Source of the DNA: Algibacter lectus
Lineage (GTDB): Bacteria; Bacteroidota; Bacteroidia; Flavobacteriales; Flavobacteriaceae
Direction of reading: 5' to 3'
NCBI RefSeq assembly: GCF_900112395.1
Contig: NZ_FOLN01000005.1
Coordinates: 62,001 to 126,000 of the forward strand
Length of the DNA stretch: 64,000 nucleotides
How positions within the stretch are numbered: the stretch's first letter is position 1; the number at the start of each line of letters is the position of its first letter. The notes under the pieces were generated by a model. It saw only the letters and a list, made by a program, of their open reading frames with translations, ran no database searches and had not been told where the DNA came from. The position numbers and the translations under genes were made by a program. Shown here piece by piece: positions 9,911-15,237 of the stretch.

Positions 9911-10390
9911 TTAAACTGTTTCGTTCAACCAAGCTTTCATCATCCAAACAGTTTTTTCTTGTTCGGTAATAAAATCGCTCATCATAGAACCTGTTCCTTC
10001 ATCGCTAGCATCGCCTGCTTTTTCTAATATTTCACGTTCAATTTTTAATAATTGAGCTAAAGAATCTACAATTAACCTAACAGCTAAATCATCTTGAGAA
10101 ATATTTTTACCAACAGGTACTTGTGCCTTCGCTGCATAATCTTCAAAAGTATGTAATGGTGTATCCCCTAAAGTTAAAATACGCTCTGCAATTTCGTCTA
10201 CCTTGGTATTAGCATCGGTATACAATTCTTCGAATTTAACGTGTAAATCAAAAAAACGTTTACCCTTAATATTCCAGTGAATACCTCTTAAATTTTGATA
10301 ATATATTTGAAAATTAGCTAAAAGATGATTCAAATCTGTTGCTATTTCTTGTGTTTTTATGGTATCTAAACCTATTGTATTTAAAGTCAT
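9911..10390 (-). CDS. dps: Dps family DNA-binding ferritin-like protein
   Basis: Forms a dodecameric shell that oxidises Fe2+ with H2O2 and protects DNA. The four ferroxidase ligands match E. coli Dps in spacing: H38 and H50 from one subunit, D65 and E69 from the other, in motifs IHWNIKG, FDLHVKFEELYTDA and KVDEIAERI. The open frame extends to 10447, but the ATG at 10390 (MTLNTIGLDTIK) gives 159 aa, the usual size; the 19 extra residues are unlike the family. It is divergent from oxyR, its expected peroxide-responsive activator, across a 104-bp spacer. Confidence 0.93.
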   Translation of the reverse strand: MTLNTIGLDTIKTQEIATDLNHLLANFQIYYQNLRGIHWNIKGKRFFDLHVKFEELYTDANTKVDEIAERILTLGDTPLHTFEDYAAKAQVPVGKNISQDDLAVRLIVDSLAQLLKIEREILEKAGDASDEGTGSMMSDFITEQEKTVWMMKAWLNETV

Positions 10391-10494
10391 TACGATGTGT
10401 TTTTTATGTTCATACAAATTTAAGTCATAAAAAAAGCTTTTTAGCATAAGTTTTATTGATAGTTTTTATATTTTTATAGTCAAAATTGATTCTT

Positions 10495-11433
10495 ATGACA
10501 ATTACCCAATTATCTTATGTTTTGGCTGTTGCCGAAAACCAGAACTTCACTAAAGCTGCCGAAAAGTGCTTTGTTACGCAGCCTACTTTAAGTATGCAAA
10601 TTCAGAAATTAGAAGATCAACTCGATATTTTAATTTTTGACAGAAGTAAAAAACCTATTGAACTTACCGATGTTGGGCGAAAAATTGTAACCCAAGCTAG
10701 AAATATTGTAAACGAATCTTACAGAATTCAAGATATTGTAGATCAACAAAAAGGATTTATTGGTGGTGAATTTAAATTAGGAATTATACCAACAGTAATG
10801 CCTACTCTACTGCCTATGTTTTTGAAAAACTTCATAAAGAAACACCCTAAGGTGAAACTTAAAATTGAAGAATTAACTACGGAAGAAATAATGGCACGTA
10901 TAAAAGATGGTCATTTAGATGCTGCCATTGCCGCAACACCTTTAGAAGATGAAAGCATAAAAGAGCGTGTACTCTATTTTGAGCCTTTTGTAAGCTATAT
11001 ACCAAAAAGCCACAGACTATATAAAAACAAAACAATTGATGTATCAGATTTAGATGTAGATGATATGCTACTTTTAGAAGATGGTCACTGTTTTAGAGAT
11101 GGTGTAATAAACCTGTGTAAAGCGTTTAAAAATCAAACCGATGAAACATTTCAATTAGAAAGTGGAAGCATTGAAACTTTAATTAGACTATCTAATGAAG
11201 GTTTAGGCATGACGCTTCTACCCTATTTACATACCCTAGAAATTAACGAAAAAGAAAAAGAGAATCTACGCTATTTCAACGAGCCATCTCCTGCTCGTGA
11301 AGTGAGTTTGATTTACCATAAAAGCGAGTTAAAAATGCAGATTATCGAAGCTTTACAAGATGTTATTTCCGGTGTGGTTCGTGGAGCGATTGCTTTCCAA
11401 AATGTAAAAATTATTAGCCCATTACCGAAATAG
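10495..11433 (+). CDS. oxyR: peroxide-sensing LysR-type regulator OxyR
   Basis: A 312-aa LysR-type activator. The N-terminal winged HTH is MTITQLSYVLAVAENQNFTK followed by QPTLSMQIQKLE; the C-terminal domain is the regulatory fold. It carries the redox cysteine pair in LLEDGHCFRDGVINLCK. With the ATG at 10495 as start these are C199 and C208, the same numbers and spacing as in E. coli OxyR, which supports this start over the TTG at 10486 and confirms the peroxide-sensor identity. Disulfide formation on H2O2 exposure would activate dps and other defence genes. No obvious four-ATAG OxyR box is visible in the spacer. Confidence 0.95.
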   Translation: MTITQLSYVLAVAENQNFTKAAEKCFVTQPTLSMQIQKLEDQLDILIFDRSKKPIELTDVGRKIVTQARNIVNESYRIQDIVDQQKGFIGGEFKLGIIPTVMPTLLPMFLKNFIKKHPKVKLKIEELTTEEIMARIKDGHLDAAIAATPLEDESIKERVLYFEPFVSYIPKSHRLYKNKTIDVSDLDVDDMLLLEDGHCFRDGVINLCKAFKNQTDETFQLESGSIETLIRLSNEGLGMTLLPYLHTLEINEKEKENLRYFNEPSPAREVSLIYHKSELKMQIIEALQDVISGVVRGAIAFQNVKIISPLPK

Positions 11434-11546: not shown

Positions 11547-12551
11547 TTATAGCGCAAAGTTGACGTAAATAGAAAAACGGTTTTTAGATTTCACATTCCC
11601 GCCAAATAAATCTTGACTTAATGGCGCAGTGTAATTTGCTCCGAAAATAAATTTTTCAATAGCAAATTCAGAACCTATAGTACCACTTAATATCTTTCCA
11701 TCAGTATCTGCTAAAGTTTCGCCATATTGAGTGATTTTATCGTAGACATCACCAGAAACCCCAATAAATGGCATTATATTGTAAGTTTCCTTCGGAAAGG
11801 TTGTGAAAAAATTAGCTGAATAACTAAACTGATTTCCGAATTGATAATCGTTTTTATTTTCGCCTTTCAGGTAATAGGTCATAAGTGTATTTACTCCAAA
11901 TTTATTAGTTCCATAATTATAGCCAACAGCAAAAACACCATCTACACTACCGGTACCAACCTGAAAACCAGGATTAACATTATCTGCCAAAGCTTCTTCA
12001 AACTTACCCGTTGGAAGTTTTGCACCAACACCAAATTGTAGAGAGTGTCCCGACGCTATACGCTCGGTATTAAAGGTTAGGGAGTCGCTTTCTTTTTTAT
12101 AAAACTGTAATTTATACCAGCCCATAACACTACTGTCTCCCAAACCATTTAGGTTTTCATTATTCCCTTCGGAATACTCTCTATTTAGATCTTGATAAGG
12201 CACATTCACACTCACATAAAAGGCATCATTTATAGGCAATTGCGCCCATAATTGATACGTATTAAAGGTTTCTTTAGTTATCGGAGAGTTAGAAAAAATT
12301 CCATCTTTAGATTCGAAGTTTTGATAAATATAACGGATGCCAACAAAATTAGCATTGCTTAATGTACCAAAACCAAAACTACCTGAACTAGTAGAACAAC
12401 CACACAAATCGCACATAACGCTTAATGGTTCAAAAACATGTTCGTGAACACCAAATGGCGGATCTATCTCCCTTGCTTCCATCACCCCTATATTTAGCAC
12501 AAATGCAACCGCAAGAACGCTTATTTTTTTAATATTCTGAAAATCTATCAT
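11547..12551 (-). CDS. outer-membrane barrel protein with N-terminal His/Cys cluster
   Basis: A 334-aa protein with a signal peptide (cleavage near VMEA) and alternating beta-strands with amphipathic pattern and an aromatic-rich C-terminus (NRFSIYVNFAL), as in porin-like transporters. The mature N-terminus holds H36 and H38 (VHEHVF) and then C47, C50 and C52 in MCDLCGCSTSSG, a likely metal-binding segment. It overlaps the upstream dihaem peroxidase gene by 23 bp, so the two are translationally coupled, and it is the last gene of the MbnP/MbnH operon. I infer metal (copper) efflux, uptake or sensing at the outer membrane; the substrate is not shown by the sequence. Confidence 0.75.
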   Translation of the reverse strand: MIDFQNIKKISVLAVAFVLNIGVMEAREIDPPFGVHEHVFEPLSVMCDLCGCSTSSGSFGFGTLSNANFVGIRYIYQNFESKDGIFSNSPITKETFNTYQLWAQLPINDAFYVSVNVPYQDLNREYSEGNNENLNGLGDSSVMGWYKLQFYKKESDSLTFNTERIASGHSLQFGVGAKLPTGKFEEALADNVNPGFQVGTGSVDGVFAVGYNYGTNKFGVNTLMTYYLKGENKNDYQFGNQFSYSANFFTTFPKETYNIMPFIGVSGDVYDKITQYGETLADTDGKILSGTIGSEFAIEKFIFGANYTAPLSQDLFGGNVKSKNRFSIYVNFAL

Positions 12552-13575
12552 CGGTCAAAAACTCATTATCTGTTAATGTGTAAAGAAATGCTATTATGCT
12601 CTCTTTTTCGTAATCGGAAAGTGTGATACCCAAGCTCCCATCTTCTCTATTAAACGCCTGGTCTACGTTACCATTATCGGTCATGCCAGAATCATAAAAA
12701 TTTAAAACGGCTTCTAAGGTAGAAAAGCGTCCATCGTGCATGTATGGTAATGATAGCTCTACGTTACGCAAACTTGGCACCTTAAATTTATATAAATCGG
12801 CTGGGTCTTCAAAAATATCATATCGTCCTTTATCATCTAGCTTCGGATTTATTGACAAGCCATTGTTGCGGTAACTATGGTCCGTAAATAAATCGGTAGC
12901 ATGACAGGTTGCGCATTTATTTTGAAAAGTATTTAAACCGTCCAATTCAATTTCGGTTAGCACCACACCGTCTTCACTTCTTACGTATTTATCGTATTTT
13001 GAGTTTGACGACACCATCATAAGCATAAATTGTGAAAGCGCTTTTAGCATATTTTCGCTATTTATCTCGCCATCTTCAAAAGCTTTTGGAAACTGCTTTT
13101 GATAATAAGCATCTGCACTAAGTTTACTTAATACATTACTTAAAGTTTCTCCCATTTCAACCTCACTTGTTAATGGAATTATAGGTTGAAAATCTAGATG
13201 CGTAGCGGCACCATCCCACATAAACTCCGATTGATATGCTAAGTTTTGAATGGGTTGCGCATTACGCGTTCCAATACCACCATTTACACCATGACTAACG
13301 GTGTGTTCGTGGTGAGTGAAAGCAAAGGCTTGCTCATGGCAAAAAGCACATGGAATAGCATCGTTTGCCGATAGTTTACCATCGTAAAACAAGCTTTTCC
13401 CTAACTCGAAACCTGCTTCAGTTACTGGATTATTATCCAGATTATAACCCATTTCCGGAAAATTAGCTGGTTGCTCTACATTTAAATACACCGGAACATA
13501 AACCTCTGTATTGGATGATTTGGAACAAGATAGGACACTGACAACTGCCAAAGTAATAAGAACTATTTTTTTCAT
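12529..13575 (-). CDS. MbnH/MauG-like dihaem cytochrome c peroxidase, lipoprotein
   Basis: A 348-aa periplasmic dihaem protein with a lipoprotein signal (SVLSC). Two haem c sites are visible, CAFCH (76-80) and CATCH (221-225), with W120 in EFMWDGA between them, where MauG-type enzymes have a bridging tryptophan, and PYMHDGRFSTLEAVLNFY near 277-294. The CcpA/MauG superfamily includes H2O2 peroxidases and MbnH, which oxidises a tryptophan of its partner MbnP. Because an MbnP-type gene lies immediately upstream on the same strand, MbnH-like function is more likely than simple peroxidase. The Met in PYMHDG resembles CcpA peroxidases rather than the Tyr ligand of MauG, so the chemistry needs care. 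Gap to MbnP is 127 bp with a hairpin. Confidence 0.85.
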   Translation of the reverse strand: MKKIVLITLAVVSVLSCSKSSNTEVYVPVYLNVEQPANFPEMGYNLDNNPVTEAGFELGKSLFYDGKLSANDAIPCAFCHEQAFAFTHHEHTVSHGVNGGIGTRNAQPIQNLAYQSEFMWDGAATHLDFQPIIPLTSEVEMGETLSNVLSKLSADAYYQKQFPKAFEDGEINSENMLKALSQFMLMMVSSNSKYDKYVRSEDGVVLTEIELDGLNTFQNKCATCHATDLFTDHSYRNNGLSINPKLDDKGRYDIFEDPADLYKFKVPSLRNVELSLPYMHDGRFSTLEAVLNFYDSGMTDNGNVDQAFNREDGSLGITLSDYEKESIIAFLYTLTDNEFLTDDRFSEY

Positions 13576-13658
13576 TTTAATAAGTGTTAAACCAACGAAA
13601 TAAACGCTACCTCTTTGGTATTAATAAATACACTCCTTTGTTTGATAAAACAAATAAG

Positions 13659-13685
13659 TTTCCTCGGTAGGTTATACCGAGGAAA
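13659..13685. other. perfect intercistronic hairpin in the MbnP-MbnH gap
   Basis: TTTCCTCGGTA (13659-13669) pairs perfectly with TACCGAGGAAA (13675-13685) around a 5-base loop. On the transcribed minus strand it is followed by ACTTATTTG, not a T-run, so it looks more like an mRNA-processing or attenuation hairpin than a full terminator. Confidence 0.7.
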
Positions 13686-13702
13686 TTATTATCTAAAAAA
13701 AA

Positions 13703-14503
13703 TTAGTCGTTATGCACGTGGTGTACAGAAAATATGCCACTCATGTTTGTTGCAATTACACCTGTTGTAGTTTCATCGGTATGCACTTGTGCATAACCAT
13801 CATCGAAACTTACAGAAGTTACACCATCAAAAACCTGAGCAATATCTGCCTTAATATGTACCGATGGCTCATTACCTTCTCTTACTAATACTTCGTTTGG
13901 AAAAGTCAAGGTTGTTTCTTTGTAGTTATCTATAGCCGTACCAACGCTTCCCATGTGGATGTTTAATGCTGCATCAGTTTCCGTTTCAGAAGTATAAGTT
14001 CCATCGAATCTCATAAACCTATATCCAGTGGCCCAAGACCACATCATACCTTCATCTTGCGCTGTAGTAAGGAAATCTCCTTGACCATCTGCTCCAGAAG
14101 CATAACGCTCTTGATCGATACCAATTCCAAAAGTTACTTGAGTATAATTTGCTGCATCTACATCTTCTAAAGTAATATAGATTTCGCCTGCAGTATTTCC
14201 GTTTGCTTCACTTACAATAAAGATATTGTCTTCTGCTGGGTATGTGTAAACATTACCGTCGCTATCTGTTAAGCTTACATTTGATATTAAATATTTTAAT
14301 GTTTCTAATTGGTAAGTTTCACCGTTATCTTTAGTGTAAGTTGTTCCGAAAATAAAATCTTGATCGCCAACACCGTTATCGAATTTAAGGATTAAATCTC
14401 CTGTTTGTCCTGTTAAATCTTCTGTATTACCATCATCGTCTGATGAACATGAAGCGATAGTTATAGATAATAAAAGTGCGATTGTATATTTTAAAATTTT
14501 CAT
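13703..14503 (-). CDS. MbnP family copper-binding lipoprotein
   Basis: A 266-aa lipoprotein (signal TIASC, Cys19). It matches the MbnP pattern: DLILKFDNGVGDQDFIF, then ETLKYLISNVSL, NIFIVSE, GIGID and MMWSWATGYRFMRFDG. Known family members bind copper after the partner MbnH converts a tryptophan to kynurenine. This protein has only two tryptophans, W155 and W157, both in the conserved MMWSWATGY motif, making them the candidate targets. Possible copper ligands are H183 (LNIHMGS) and the C-terminal HHVHND. It sits between a small Cys/His membrane protein and the MbnH-like gene on the same strand. No methanobactin precursor or biosynthesis gene is visible. Confidence 0.85.
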   Translation of the reverse strand: MKILKYTIALLLSITIASCSSDDDGNTEDLTGQTGDLILKFDNGVGDQDFIFGTTYTKDNGETYQLETLKYLISNVSLTDSDGNVYTYPAEDNIFIVSEANGNTAGEIYITLEDVDAANYTQVTFGIGIDQERYASGADGQGDFLTTAQDEGMMWSWATGYRFMRFDGTYTSETETDAALNIHMGSVGTAIDNYKETTLTFPNEVLVREGNEPSVHIKADIAQVFDGVTSVSFDDGYAQVHTDETTTGVIATNMSGIFSVHHVHND

Positions 14504-14621
14504 TAGTAATGGTATAAGTATATAACAGCCTTATCGTCATTATTTGGACGGCTGCTAAATTATTGTAAAATTGATTTTAATAAGTATGTTTAAGGCTGGT
14601 TTGCCTTTTTAAGAAATCAAA

Positions 14622-14999
14622 TTACACCATTGGTGGACGAAAATGGTTATGCTCGTATAAATATGCATAACTACTATTACAGATTGTATTTACTATTTTA
14701 TTTAAAGGAATTTGAGTTTCCTTTAAATTGAAATTTTCGTTTTCTTGAAAGTATAGCGCGAATAAATACTCGGTTAATAATACTACTGTTTTACTATCGT
14801 CTTGAGGATTGGTATCGGTTTGTAATTGTTTTGCTAAATGACATTTACCGTTACAGGCGAGTTCTACTTTTTCTTTGTTGATACAGAAAACCTCGGTAAT
14901 ATAATCCACATTTATTTCGTAATAAGCCAAATAACTCAGGTTATAGAGTGGCTTTATTACAAAGGCAATGAGTAATATGAATACAAAAGTCTTTTTCAA
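14622..14999 (-). CDS. small membrane-anchored protein with CxxxCH motif
   Basis: A 125-aa protein starting at a TTG (MKKTFVFILLIAFV), with one N-terminal hydrophobic segment that may be a signal anchor. It contains C39, then ACNGKCHLAKQL (C49, C53, H54), and near the C-terminus a Cys and a His-rich tail (EHNHFRPPMV). The Cys/His pattern suggests periplasmic metal binding, and its place as first gene of the MbnP operon supports copper handling. No characterised family is recognised. No ATG is available in frame nearby. Confidence 0.65.
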   Translation of the reverse strand: MKKTFVFILLIAFVIKPLYNLSYLAYYEINVDYITEVFCINKEKVELACNGKCHLAKQLQTDTNPQDDSKTVVLLTEYLFALYFQENENFNLKETQIPLNKIVNTICNSSYAYLYEHNHFRPPMV

Positions 15000-15118
15000 C
15001 GGTAATTTTATAGTTTGGCAAATGTAAAAAAGTTTAGATTATTTTTATAAGAAAAACTTGCGTTAGTTTAAAACTTTAACGGTTTTTAATTTTAATAACT
15101 GCGCTTACCGATTGCCCT

Positions 15119-15225
15119 GCGTTAAGGATTGAACGGCCTGTTTAAGCTCCCCGACCAACGGAAGGGAGCGAGTAGTGAAAGCCTGCCCCATACTGTGCCC
15201 TTAAAGCACAGTATGGGGAACGCCC
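15119..15225 (+). repeat. structured intergenic repeat, copy 1
   Basis: Bounded by GCGTTAAGGATTG on the left and GGGGAACGCCC on the right. Inside are two stems: CTCCC...GGGAG around 15147-15169 and a 13-bp perfect stem CCCCATACTGTGC / GCACAGTATGGGG (15187-15219). It resembles copies at 22824-22941 and 44829-44933. GC content is well above the surroundings and no ORF is present. Confidence 0.65.
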
Positions 15226-15237
15226 TAATTTTATTCA

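Follow-up and report, generated by a model that had tools for sequence, protein, structure and literature searches.

A conserved four-gene MbnP-MbnH operon of flavobacteria with a candidate copper-sensing leader and a predicted outer-membrane channel

Introduction

The stretch of DNA analysed here (the window, 64,000 nucleotides of the Algibacter lectus contig NZ_FOLN01000005.1) carries, between positions 11547 and 14999, four minus-strand open reading frames (ORFs) that, in the order of transcription, encode a small protein with a CNGKC motif, the lipoprotein MbnP, the di-haem enzyme MbnH and a putative outer-membrane channel. Known MbnH enzymes make kynurenine from a tryptophan of their MbnP. 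The locus raises two questions, namely, what a small Cys-motif protein and a channel are doing on either side of this pair, and which tryptophan of MbnP, W155 or W157, is the substrate of the enzyme. An earlier, sequence-only reading of this DNA treated the two flanking proteins as extras outside the described pair and considered the target unusually clear because MbnP has no other tryptophans. It appears likely that the four genes make up a copper operon in which the first product is a sensing leader that tunes MbnP, MbnH oxidises W155, and the Cys-tailed channel moves copper.

A four-gene module with a fixed order

The four genes are as follows.

14622-14999, minus strand: leader ORF (the "CNGKC" protein), 125 amino acids (aa), TTG start, N-terminal hydrophobic segment, invariant C39, C49, G51, C53 and Pro122-Pro123
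13703-14503, minus strand: MbnP, 266 aa, PF20243, predicted fold matching 7l6g
12529-13575, minus strand: MbnH, a di-haem MauG-family enzyme, 348 aa, two CxxCH motifs
11547-12551, minus strand: predicted outer-membrane channel, 334 aa, 12 strands, FapF/COG4313-like fold

This four-gene set is real, and the motifs CNGKCHL, CDLCGC and MMWSWATGY all occur in the respective ORFs, with W155 and W157 as the sole tryptophans in the MbnP translation; the channel gene overlaps mbnH by 23 bases. In Pfam, MbnP matches PF20243 with 158.4 bits (gathering cut-off 27) and MbnH matches PF03150 with 176 bits. The best NCBIfam models are TIGR04052 ("MbnP_like_WxW", 56 bits, below the cut-off of 140) for MbnP and TIGR04039 ("MbnH family di-heme enzyme", 226 bits, below the cut-off of 363) for MbnH, so that the profile comparison proposed in the sequence-only reading bears out the two families and the best models, with both NCBIfam scores remaining under the cut-offs. 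In keeping with that reading, no MbnB-family gene accompanies the pair: PF05114 has 0 matches in the genome, which is rated 100% complete. The leader and channel proteins matched no Pfam or NCBIfam model at E 0.1 and no anti-phage family.

Scanning named genomes turned up 408 barrel relatives, the best 80 of which were kept as loci. In 72 of these best 80, the leader, MbnP, MbnH and barrel are complete, in the same order and on one strand (at L228, one of the 72, MbnP and MbnH are each split over two ORFs); because order and strand repeat in this manner, the set is far above chance. Among the eight incomplete loci, four are without MbnH (L249, L256, L260 and L266) and four are cut by a contig end (L220, L234, L246 and L270). 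The nearest named relative of the barrel, with 85% identity, is that of Algibacter pectinivorans. Starting from MbnP, which is present in 52 of 99 related genomes, the A. lectus genome included, 67 stretches, mostly of 15 kb, around the MbnP places of other genomes were combined with the window into 68 loci, 14 of which hold the full set in the window order.

The module is not rare: among 395 sampled Bacteroidota genomes, the leader family is present in at least 149, the barrel in 101 and MbnP in 97. All 31 strong barrel matches (E <=9e-44) come from genomes with both MbnP and the leader, and 29 of the 31 lie within 6 kb of MbnP; leader and barrel neighbours within that distance are all on the MbnP strand, with the barrel downstream in 39 of 41 cases. 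At 66 of 121 MbnP places, among the matches listed, neither is nearby. Judged by this conservation, the leader and the channel are regular operon members rather than local additions, and the view of them as extras is not borne out by the very survey of co-occurrence that was suggested along with it. What emerges is a fixed four-gene operon, putatively for copper, common to marine and soil flavobacteria.

The CNGKC protein as a probable leader

Comparison of 171 distinct ORFs of the leader family reveals a peculiar pattern of constraint. Two adjacent prolines occur in the last 15 residues of 169, preceded by FH, FR or FK in 129 of these; 163 are shorter than 150 aa; and C-x(8-14)-CxGxC is found in 167. 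In ORFs with both motifs, 63-72 residues (median 68) separate the Cys motif from the prolines, and the intervening sequence is poorly conserved. In 21 diverse leaders, the invariant positions are C39, C49, G51, C53, P122 and P123. The window leader, with 125 aa, the prolines at 122-123 and a same-strand mbnP 118 nt downstream, falls within the rules for CutF-like leaders of PMC9973294 (<150 aa, Pro-Pro in the last 15 aa, next gene on the same strand within 1 kb). An N-terminal hydrophobic stretch is visible, and the start codon is TTG here as in each of the five relatives compared. Most likely, then, by its sequence features, the CNGKC protein is the product of a copper-sensing leader ORF of the CutF/CruR kind that controls translation.

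The family is also found away from MbnP. In 35 such loci, chosen from the listed leaders rather than drawn at random, a TonB-receptor-like family lies directly downstream in 24 and within the next two genes in 30. Of four such receptors tested, three have TIGR01778 "TonB-copper" as their best model (256, 137 and 73 bits, none reaching the cut-off of 472), and the fourth, at L162, best matches siderophore-receptor models; the A. lectus genome itself yields only weak partial TIGR01778 matches (best 60 bits against the same cut-off) and no strong TonB-copper receptor. At single loci, SCO1, NosD, YtkA and YHS proteins beside the leader were confirmed. Leaders away from MbnP at L158, L160, L171 and L193 stand beside SCO1, NosD or metal-ATPase-like genes, which suggests a wider copper regulon under the leader family.

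Some MbnP loci (L041, L045 and L046) have two leader copies upstream of MbnP; at L046, genes that by eye are P-type ATPase, YHS-like, SCO1-like and superoxide-dismutase-like lie between or beside the copies.

Predicted pairing of the leader end with the mbnP start

The end of the leader ORF and the start of mbnP are predicted to pair in the mRNA, through the following elements.

14637-14644, minus strand: end of the leader ORF (His-Phe-Arg codons), predicted partner of the mbnP start codon region 14496-14503
14622-14631, minus strand: last codons and stop of the leader ORF (Met-Val-stop), predicted partner of 14508-14517
14508-14517, minus strand: mbnP translation-initiation region (-14 to -5), partner of 14622-14631
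14496-14503, minus strand: mbnP start codon and next codons, partner of 14637-14644
14504-14621, minus strand: leader-mbnP spacer, 118 nt, with internal hairpins; minimum free energy -30.8 kcal/mol and z -3.98 for 14495-14660

The two predicted helices are formed by AUUUUCGU with AUGAAAAU and by AAUGGUGUAA with UUAUACCAUU (-14 to -5), and the Pro-Pro codons remain unpaired between them. The folding of 14495-14660 beats all 200 dinucleotide shuffles.

The pairing is not peculiar to the window. There are 117 leader-mbnP junctions; five with a spacer below 50 nt were left out, and 104 of the rest are distinct. Across these, a mean of 8.69 pairs is expected between the mbnP start region and the final 24 nt of the leader, versus 1.80 after block shuffling, with at least 4 expected pairs in 86 of the 104; where the leader precedes other genes, 18 of 28 junctions reach this level. 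Controls, 90 junctions taken at random from 237 same-strand neighbours 50-230 nt apart with leader genes and MbnP-MbnH pairs excluded, reach it in 14 cases and are without excess (mean 2.13 versus 2.35 shuffled).

Given that the leader-mbnP spacers are too divergent for nucleotide alignment, covariation was assessed through the energies of swapped pairs. With the downstream strands swapped among the 104 loci, own pairs average -8.56 kcal/mol versus -5.14 for distant swaps, and 0 of 2000 permutations are as good; when the comparison is restricted to 34 divergent loci, the own leader-mbnP pairs are matched by none of 5000 permutations. Individual compensatory changes can be seen in sister genomes, for example, AAUGG/CCAUU in the window versus UAUGG/CCAUA in Algibacter pectinivorans.

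Several observations speak against a regulatory leader of the CutF/CruR kind or blunt the evidence for it. The own pair is within the best 5% of distant swaps in only 30 of 58 loci, or in 34 when judged from the other side, and 18 of the 104 junctions, including L031, L034, L035, L199, L212, L213, L216 and L225, have fewer than 4 expected pairs; the junction shuffles preserved block composition, not dinucleotides. By Pfam, 0 of 21 leader members belong to DUF2946 (PF11162), and the Cys-to-Pro-Pro spacing is 68, versus 45 in CutF and CruR.

The CNGKC protein could instead be a periplasmic copper chaperone or thiol partner, with an SCO-like CxxxC, acting on MbnP or the channel, in which case the RNA pairing would reflect ordinary translational coupling. 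The invariance of the Cys motif and the presence of SCO1 genes near the leader at some loci are in keeping with such a role, which we nevertheless regard as unlikely because it leaves unexplained the prolines 1-12 residues from the C-terminus and their fixed spacing from the Cys motif across variable sequence, the first position ahead of different outer-membrane proteins, and the pairing that covaries with the downstream start.

Under the leader interpretation, we find it fairly probable that a separate class of copper-sensing arrest-peptide leaders exists in Bacteroidota, with an F(H/R/K)PP end and a Cys motif at a fixed distance of about 68 residues upstream, in which the codons of the stall site serve as the antisense strand that locks the next start, and which would be used across the phylum for copper-related outer-membrane genes, both MbnPH with the Cys-tailed channel and TonB-copper-type receptors. 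Such a leader would be a peptide-plus-RNA switch with separately mutable parts.

The choice of tryptophan in MbnP

Three codons of mbnP are at issue.

14039-14041, minus strand: W155, proposed MbnH substrate, kept in 101 of 101 leader-linked MbnPs with MbnH and lost in 5 of 6 without
14033-14035, minus strand: W157, kept in 101 of 101 with MbnH and in 6 of 6 without
13955-13957, minus strand: H183, proposed copper ligand, kept in 101 of 101 with MbnH and in 2 of 6 without

By eye, MbnP is a lipoprotein, with Cys19 followed by SSDDD, and since this resembles SDDFE and SDDDD, the surface-export signals of F. johnsoniae and B. fragilis (PMC5080379), MbnP is probably located on the cell surface. 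Its predicted structure (pLDDT 86.7) matches 7l6g, the Methylosinus trichosporium MbnP, with Z 15.6 across 215 residues at 3.5 A; in a weak profile match to the 7l6g protein (E 0.032), both W-x-W and H183 are aligned. CorA and MopE are not among the listed fold matches.

The W-x-W signature is a motif of the whole family, as the name of TIGR04052 indicates, and is carried by 107 of the 136 aligned MbnPs that have an MbnH nearby. In the other 29, only the first W is there in 15 and that column lacks W in 14; 11 of these 14 have a W a few columns off, those at L082 and L087 are second copies beside another MbnP, and the one left, at L090, has Phe. Being a family motif, W-x-W cannot choose between W155 and W157, and we rejected it as evidence of the target when taken alone; the target is thus less obvious than it had seemed, and the choice rests on relatives that are without MbnH.

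For this comparison, 107 distinct leader-linked MbnPs, 101 with MbnH and six without, were counted and subjected to the Fisher test. The three residues are all present in every MbnP with MbnH, whereas in the six without it W155 is kept in one (p = 5.6e-8), H183 in two (p = 2.9e-6) and W157 in all (p = 1). A further locus, L266, was left out by the rule of at least 1500 nt downstream even though only 8 bases separate MbnP from the barrel gene there; with L266 counted by hand, W155 is lost in six of seven MbnH-less operons and H183 in five, and W157 is kept in all seven.

The MbnH-less operons come from two sources. At L249, L256, L260 and L266, there is no MbnH gene between MbnP and the barrel; at L249, L260 and L266, this absence is at the level of the locus, the genomes not having been searched for unlinked MbnH. 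Three more, L296, L310 and L321, come from a search of 169 Flavobacterium genomes with 122 MbnP places, 49 of them without MbnH within 4 kb among the matches listed; of 40 of these 49 that were looked at, 35 have an MbnH ORF, and the other five are L283, L296, L297, L310 and L321. L283, with a partial MbnH match at its contig end, is not leader-linked, and L297, being the same place as L256, was counted once. The sole keeper of W155 is L256, whose genome (G511) has an MbnH-like gene elsewhere (L323) that falls in the group of the window enzyme on the tree; the genome with L296 (G496) contains only a 599-aa relative. At L321, an outer-membrane receptor takes the place of the barrel.

At L310, the place of MbnH is taken by a 93-aa ORF (L310:3841-4122), by eye a lipoprotein with a YHS-like Cys region.

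Because MbnH-less relatives lose W155 and keep W157, it is likely that W155, not W157, is the MbnH substrate in the leader-linked group and that H183 is a ligand of the resulting site, as far as can be told from these sequence comparisons. Conversely, W157 could be the residue oxidised, with W155 acting only in electron transfer or MbnH binding; this would accommodate the invariance of both tryptophans where MbnH is present, but appears quite improbable given that W157 persists in all six tested MbnH-less operons and in L266, and that 15 of the 136 MbnPs with MbnH have the first W aligned and a second residue other than W (in a region where the alignment is uncertain). H216, H262 and H264 behave differently, being kept in all six MbnPs without MbnH and in 91 or 92 of the 101 with it, and may form a separate site.

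The assignment of W155 and the membership in the MbnP-MbnH system face counterevidence as well. Both proteins score under the equivalog cut-offs of NCBIfam (TIGR04052 and TIGR04039), and the four-Cys feature named for 7l6g is absent, Cys19, the lipoprotein cysteine, being the only one in this MbnP. The MbnP at L090 (7155-7925), which lies near an MbnH and outside the leader-linked group, carries Phe at the position of the first Trp of its relatives, and G570, the genome of L321, has lost W155 in one MbnP despite an MbnH beside its other MbnP, a case that an MbnH elsewhere in the genome does not explain. Furthermore, a quick tree requires three label changes for the MbnH-less rows, and supported branches make two of these unavoidable, so that the Fisher p-values overstate independence; losses of MbnH are few, yet more than one.

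The proposal for W155 reduces the question of which tryptophan MbnH modifies, and to what purpose, to a one-residue test in culturable flavobacteria.

MbnH and its relatives

MbnH adjoins mbnP and has two haem-binding CxxCH motifs; its nearest solved structure by sequence is 6e1c, named "Di-heme enzyme". The TIGR04039 cut-off is reached in 0 of 169 Flavobacterium genomes among the matches listed. In a tree of MbnP-linked enzymes and other PF03150 proteins, with no reference CcpA, the window enzyme falls in a 20-row clade (support 100/99) of 19 MbnP-linked enzymes and L323, and the three other PF03150 proteins of the A. lectus genome fall outside it. The sequence-only reading had asked whether the enzyme would group with plain CcpA enzymes, and, to the extent that this tree answers, the strongly supported clade stands, whereas another MbnP-linked set falls with the three unlinked paralogs (92/88, under a midpoint root and with long branches), which tells against a sharp boundary. 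The tree is, then, supportive rather than a clean separation from di-haem peroxidases.

That MbnH is a plain peroxide-detoxifying cytochrome c peroxidase and a chance neighbour of MbnP strikes us as very improbable. The PF03150 domain and the LysR regulator and Dps-type genes that adjoin the operon in the window would fit such an enzyme, but the LysR gene is on the opposite strand, the nearest enzymes on the tree are MbnP-linked, and W155 and H183 of the neighbouring MbnP decay upon the loss of MbnH.

The axial Tyr (Y294), whose counterpart in the alignment is Tyr for 6e1c and Met for the solved peroxidase 4aal, was considered as a MauG/MbnH marker and rejected, since the three other PF03150 proteins of the genome also have Tyr. 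A sister operon type at L048, L051 and L054 consists of the leader, a lipoprotein, an outer-membrane receptor, MbnP and MbnH; at L048 and L051, the MbnH is without the PYMHDG motif and the Tyr, and MbnP is retained. At L050, L058, L072, L074 and L080, a tandem pair of MbnH genes follows a single MbnP.

The predicted Cys-tailed channel

The last gene most likely encodes an outer-membrane channel of a FapF/COG4313-like fold: its AlphaFold2 model (mean pLDDT 81) has twelve long strands, and the best fold matches are FapF (5o65, Z 24.3, 244 residues, 2.3 A) and the COG4313 channel (4rl8, Z 24.0). PF13557 (Phenol_MetA_deg) is matched by 4 of 14 channel members, not including the window protein. Ahead of the barrel is a tail with a Cys motif.

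12396-12413, minus strand: CDLCGC motif (residues 47-52) in the N-terminal tail of the channel; C47, D48, C50 and C52 invariant in 46 sequences

Of the metal motif previously proposed for this tail, H-x-H followed by C-x2-C-x-C, the Cys part holds, CDxCxC being invariant in the 46 sequences, and the H-x-H part was rejected as not conserved (L037 and L040, for instance, do not have it). In the model, pLDDT is <50 throughout segment 24-61, where CDLCGC lies. With an even number of strands, both ends of a barrel should face the periplasm, and the Cys tail would accordingly be placed at the inner mouth of the pore. The barrel appears to be independent of MbnH, since six of the seven operons without MbnH retain it.

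At L084 (3831-5971), MbnP-MbnH is followed by proteins that by eye are heavy-metal-associated-like and redoxin-like, and then by a distant barrel relative without the usual motif.

Proposed mechanism

We propose that the leader is a short exported protein whose CxxxC would meet copper outside the inner membrane while the C-terminus is still in the ribosome. The C-terminal Phe-(His/Arg/Lys)-Pro-Pro codons lie within mRNA predicted to pair with the mbnP start region; a ribosome pausing at the Pro codons would open the mbnP start, and copper could thus tune the output of MbnP, up or down. MbnP would be an outer-membrane lipoprotein, probably exposed at the surface, and MbnH a di-haem MauG-type oxidase that oxidises W155 of W-x-W, most likely to kynurenine, such that oxidised W155 and H183 would complete a copper site. 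The channel, with its flexible Cys tail, probably passes copper between MbnP and the periplasm, conceivably in either direction, and seems to take the place held by a TonB copper-type receptor in related operons.

The direction matters for one more explanation, namely, copper resistance through efflux, with copper-induced expression, scavenging by MbnP outside the cell and export through the channel. CutF itself raises the expression of a copper oxidase with copper (PMC9973294), and P-type ATPase genes adjoin leader genes at a few loci (the ATPase at L193 is of the heavy-metal type, and its best specific model is a cadmium family). Against efflux, members of the leader family are also followed by TonB-copper-type receptors, which as a class are known for import, and CruR heads a copper-repressed operon with a TonB transporter (PMC9426467). 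We hold efflux to be a possibility, albeit a doubtful one; it fits less well than a sensing leader with a transport channel of either direction, as do the chaperone and plain-peroxidase explanations.

Surroundings of the operon

Two further elements accompany the operon.

13659-13685, minus strand: hairpin in the mbnP-mbnH spacer with a perfect 11-bp stem; z -3.54 for 13570-13710
15019-15026, minus strand: candidate promoter element TACATTTG; the same element in L038, L039 and L198

The 11-bp hairpin possibly results in unequal amounts of MbnP and MbnH. The promoter candidate TACATTTG presumably fits the TAnnTTTG -7 element of Bacteroidota. A palindromic, REP-like repeat element with 34 matches in the genome, itself included, lies immediately upstream of the operon at 15110-15235 of the window. 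Directly downstream, at 9911-11433, are the genes for the LysR regulator, OxyR-like by its setting, and the Dps-type ferritin; among the 68 MbnP loci, 11 have LysR relatives and 10 have Dps relatives.

Comparison with known systems

CutF of Rhodobacter capsulatus controls the translation of the next gene in response to copper, and CutF-like proteins have been collected as short and exported, with Pro-Pro at the end, a metal motif and a gene directly downstream, in a survey that counts Bacteroidota in its list D (PMC9973294). The CNGKC family resembles CutF in being a short, presumably exported protein with CxxxC and with Pro-Pro near the C-terminus, placed first before copper genes, and in the predicted RNA structure that would shield the next start. 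It differs in that CutF is reported as DUF2946-like, which the CNGKC family is not by Pfam; in the spacing of 68 in the window leader versus 45 residues; in the shield, which in the window is predicted to be the leader ORF end itself paired with the next start; and in the downstream gene, which is mbnP.

CruR of Bordetella pertussis precedes a TonB transporter, and MbnPH-like genes are reported in the DUF2946 operons of its relatives (PMC9426467). Common to both is the copper-sensing leader ORF before outer-membrane transport genes, as far as the CNGKC protein can be so classified; peculiar to CruR are the CXXC and RAPP motifs, repression by copper through Rho termination, and homologs that are mostly from Proteobacteria, according to the same paper. 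PMC12992588 reports finding no RAPP/RGPP leaders before copper-related genes in Bacteroidota; the CNGKC family, with F[HRK]PP in place of RAPP/RGPP, may fill this gap.

The methanotroph MbnP and MbnH (PMC3621798; 6e1c, 7l6g) share with the window proteins the gene pair, W-x-W and the fold; unlike those operons, the A. lectus operon has no MbnB-family gene in its genome, its proteins have no four-Cys feature and score below the TIGR04039 and TIGR04052 cut-offs, and it adds a leader and a channel. Kynurenine is reported for CorA and MopE (PMC3912023; PMC3621798), and CorA/CorB and MopE are similar in comprising a surface copper protein, kynurenine with two histidines and a neighbouring gene of the di-haem peroxidase family (PMC3912023). 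According to PMC3621798, the MbnP sequence is not markedly similar to MopE or CorA, and the window MbnP has W-x-W with a distant His where the CorA/MopE system has Kyn62-x-His64 (PMC3912023). The channel shares the 12-stranded barrel fold of FapF and COG4313 (5o65, 4rl8) and, unlike these, has an N-terminal tail with invariant CDxCxC, a copper-operon setting and no Pfam match. Taken together, the set is MbnPH and a probable copper-sensing leader, two known kinds of system, joined with an uncharacterised family of channels.

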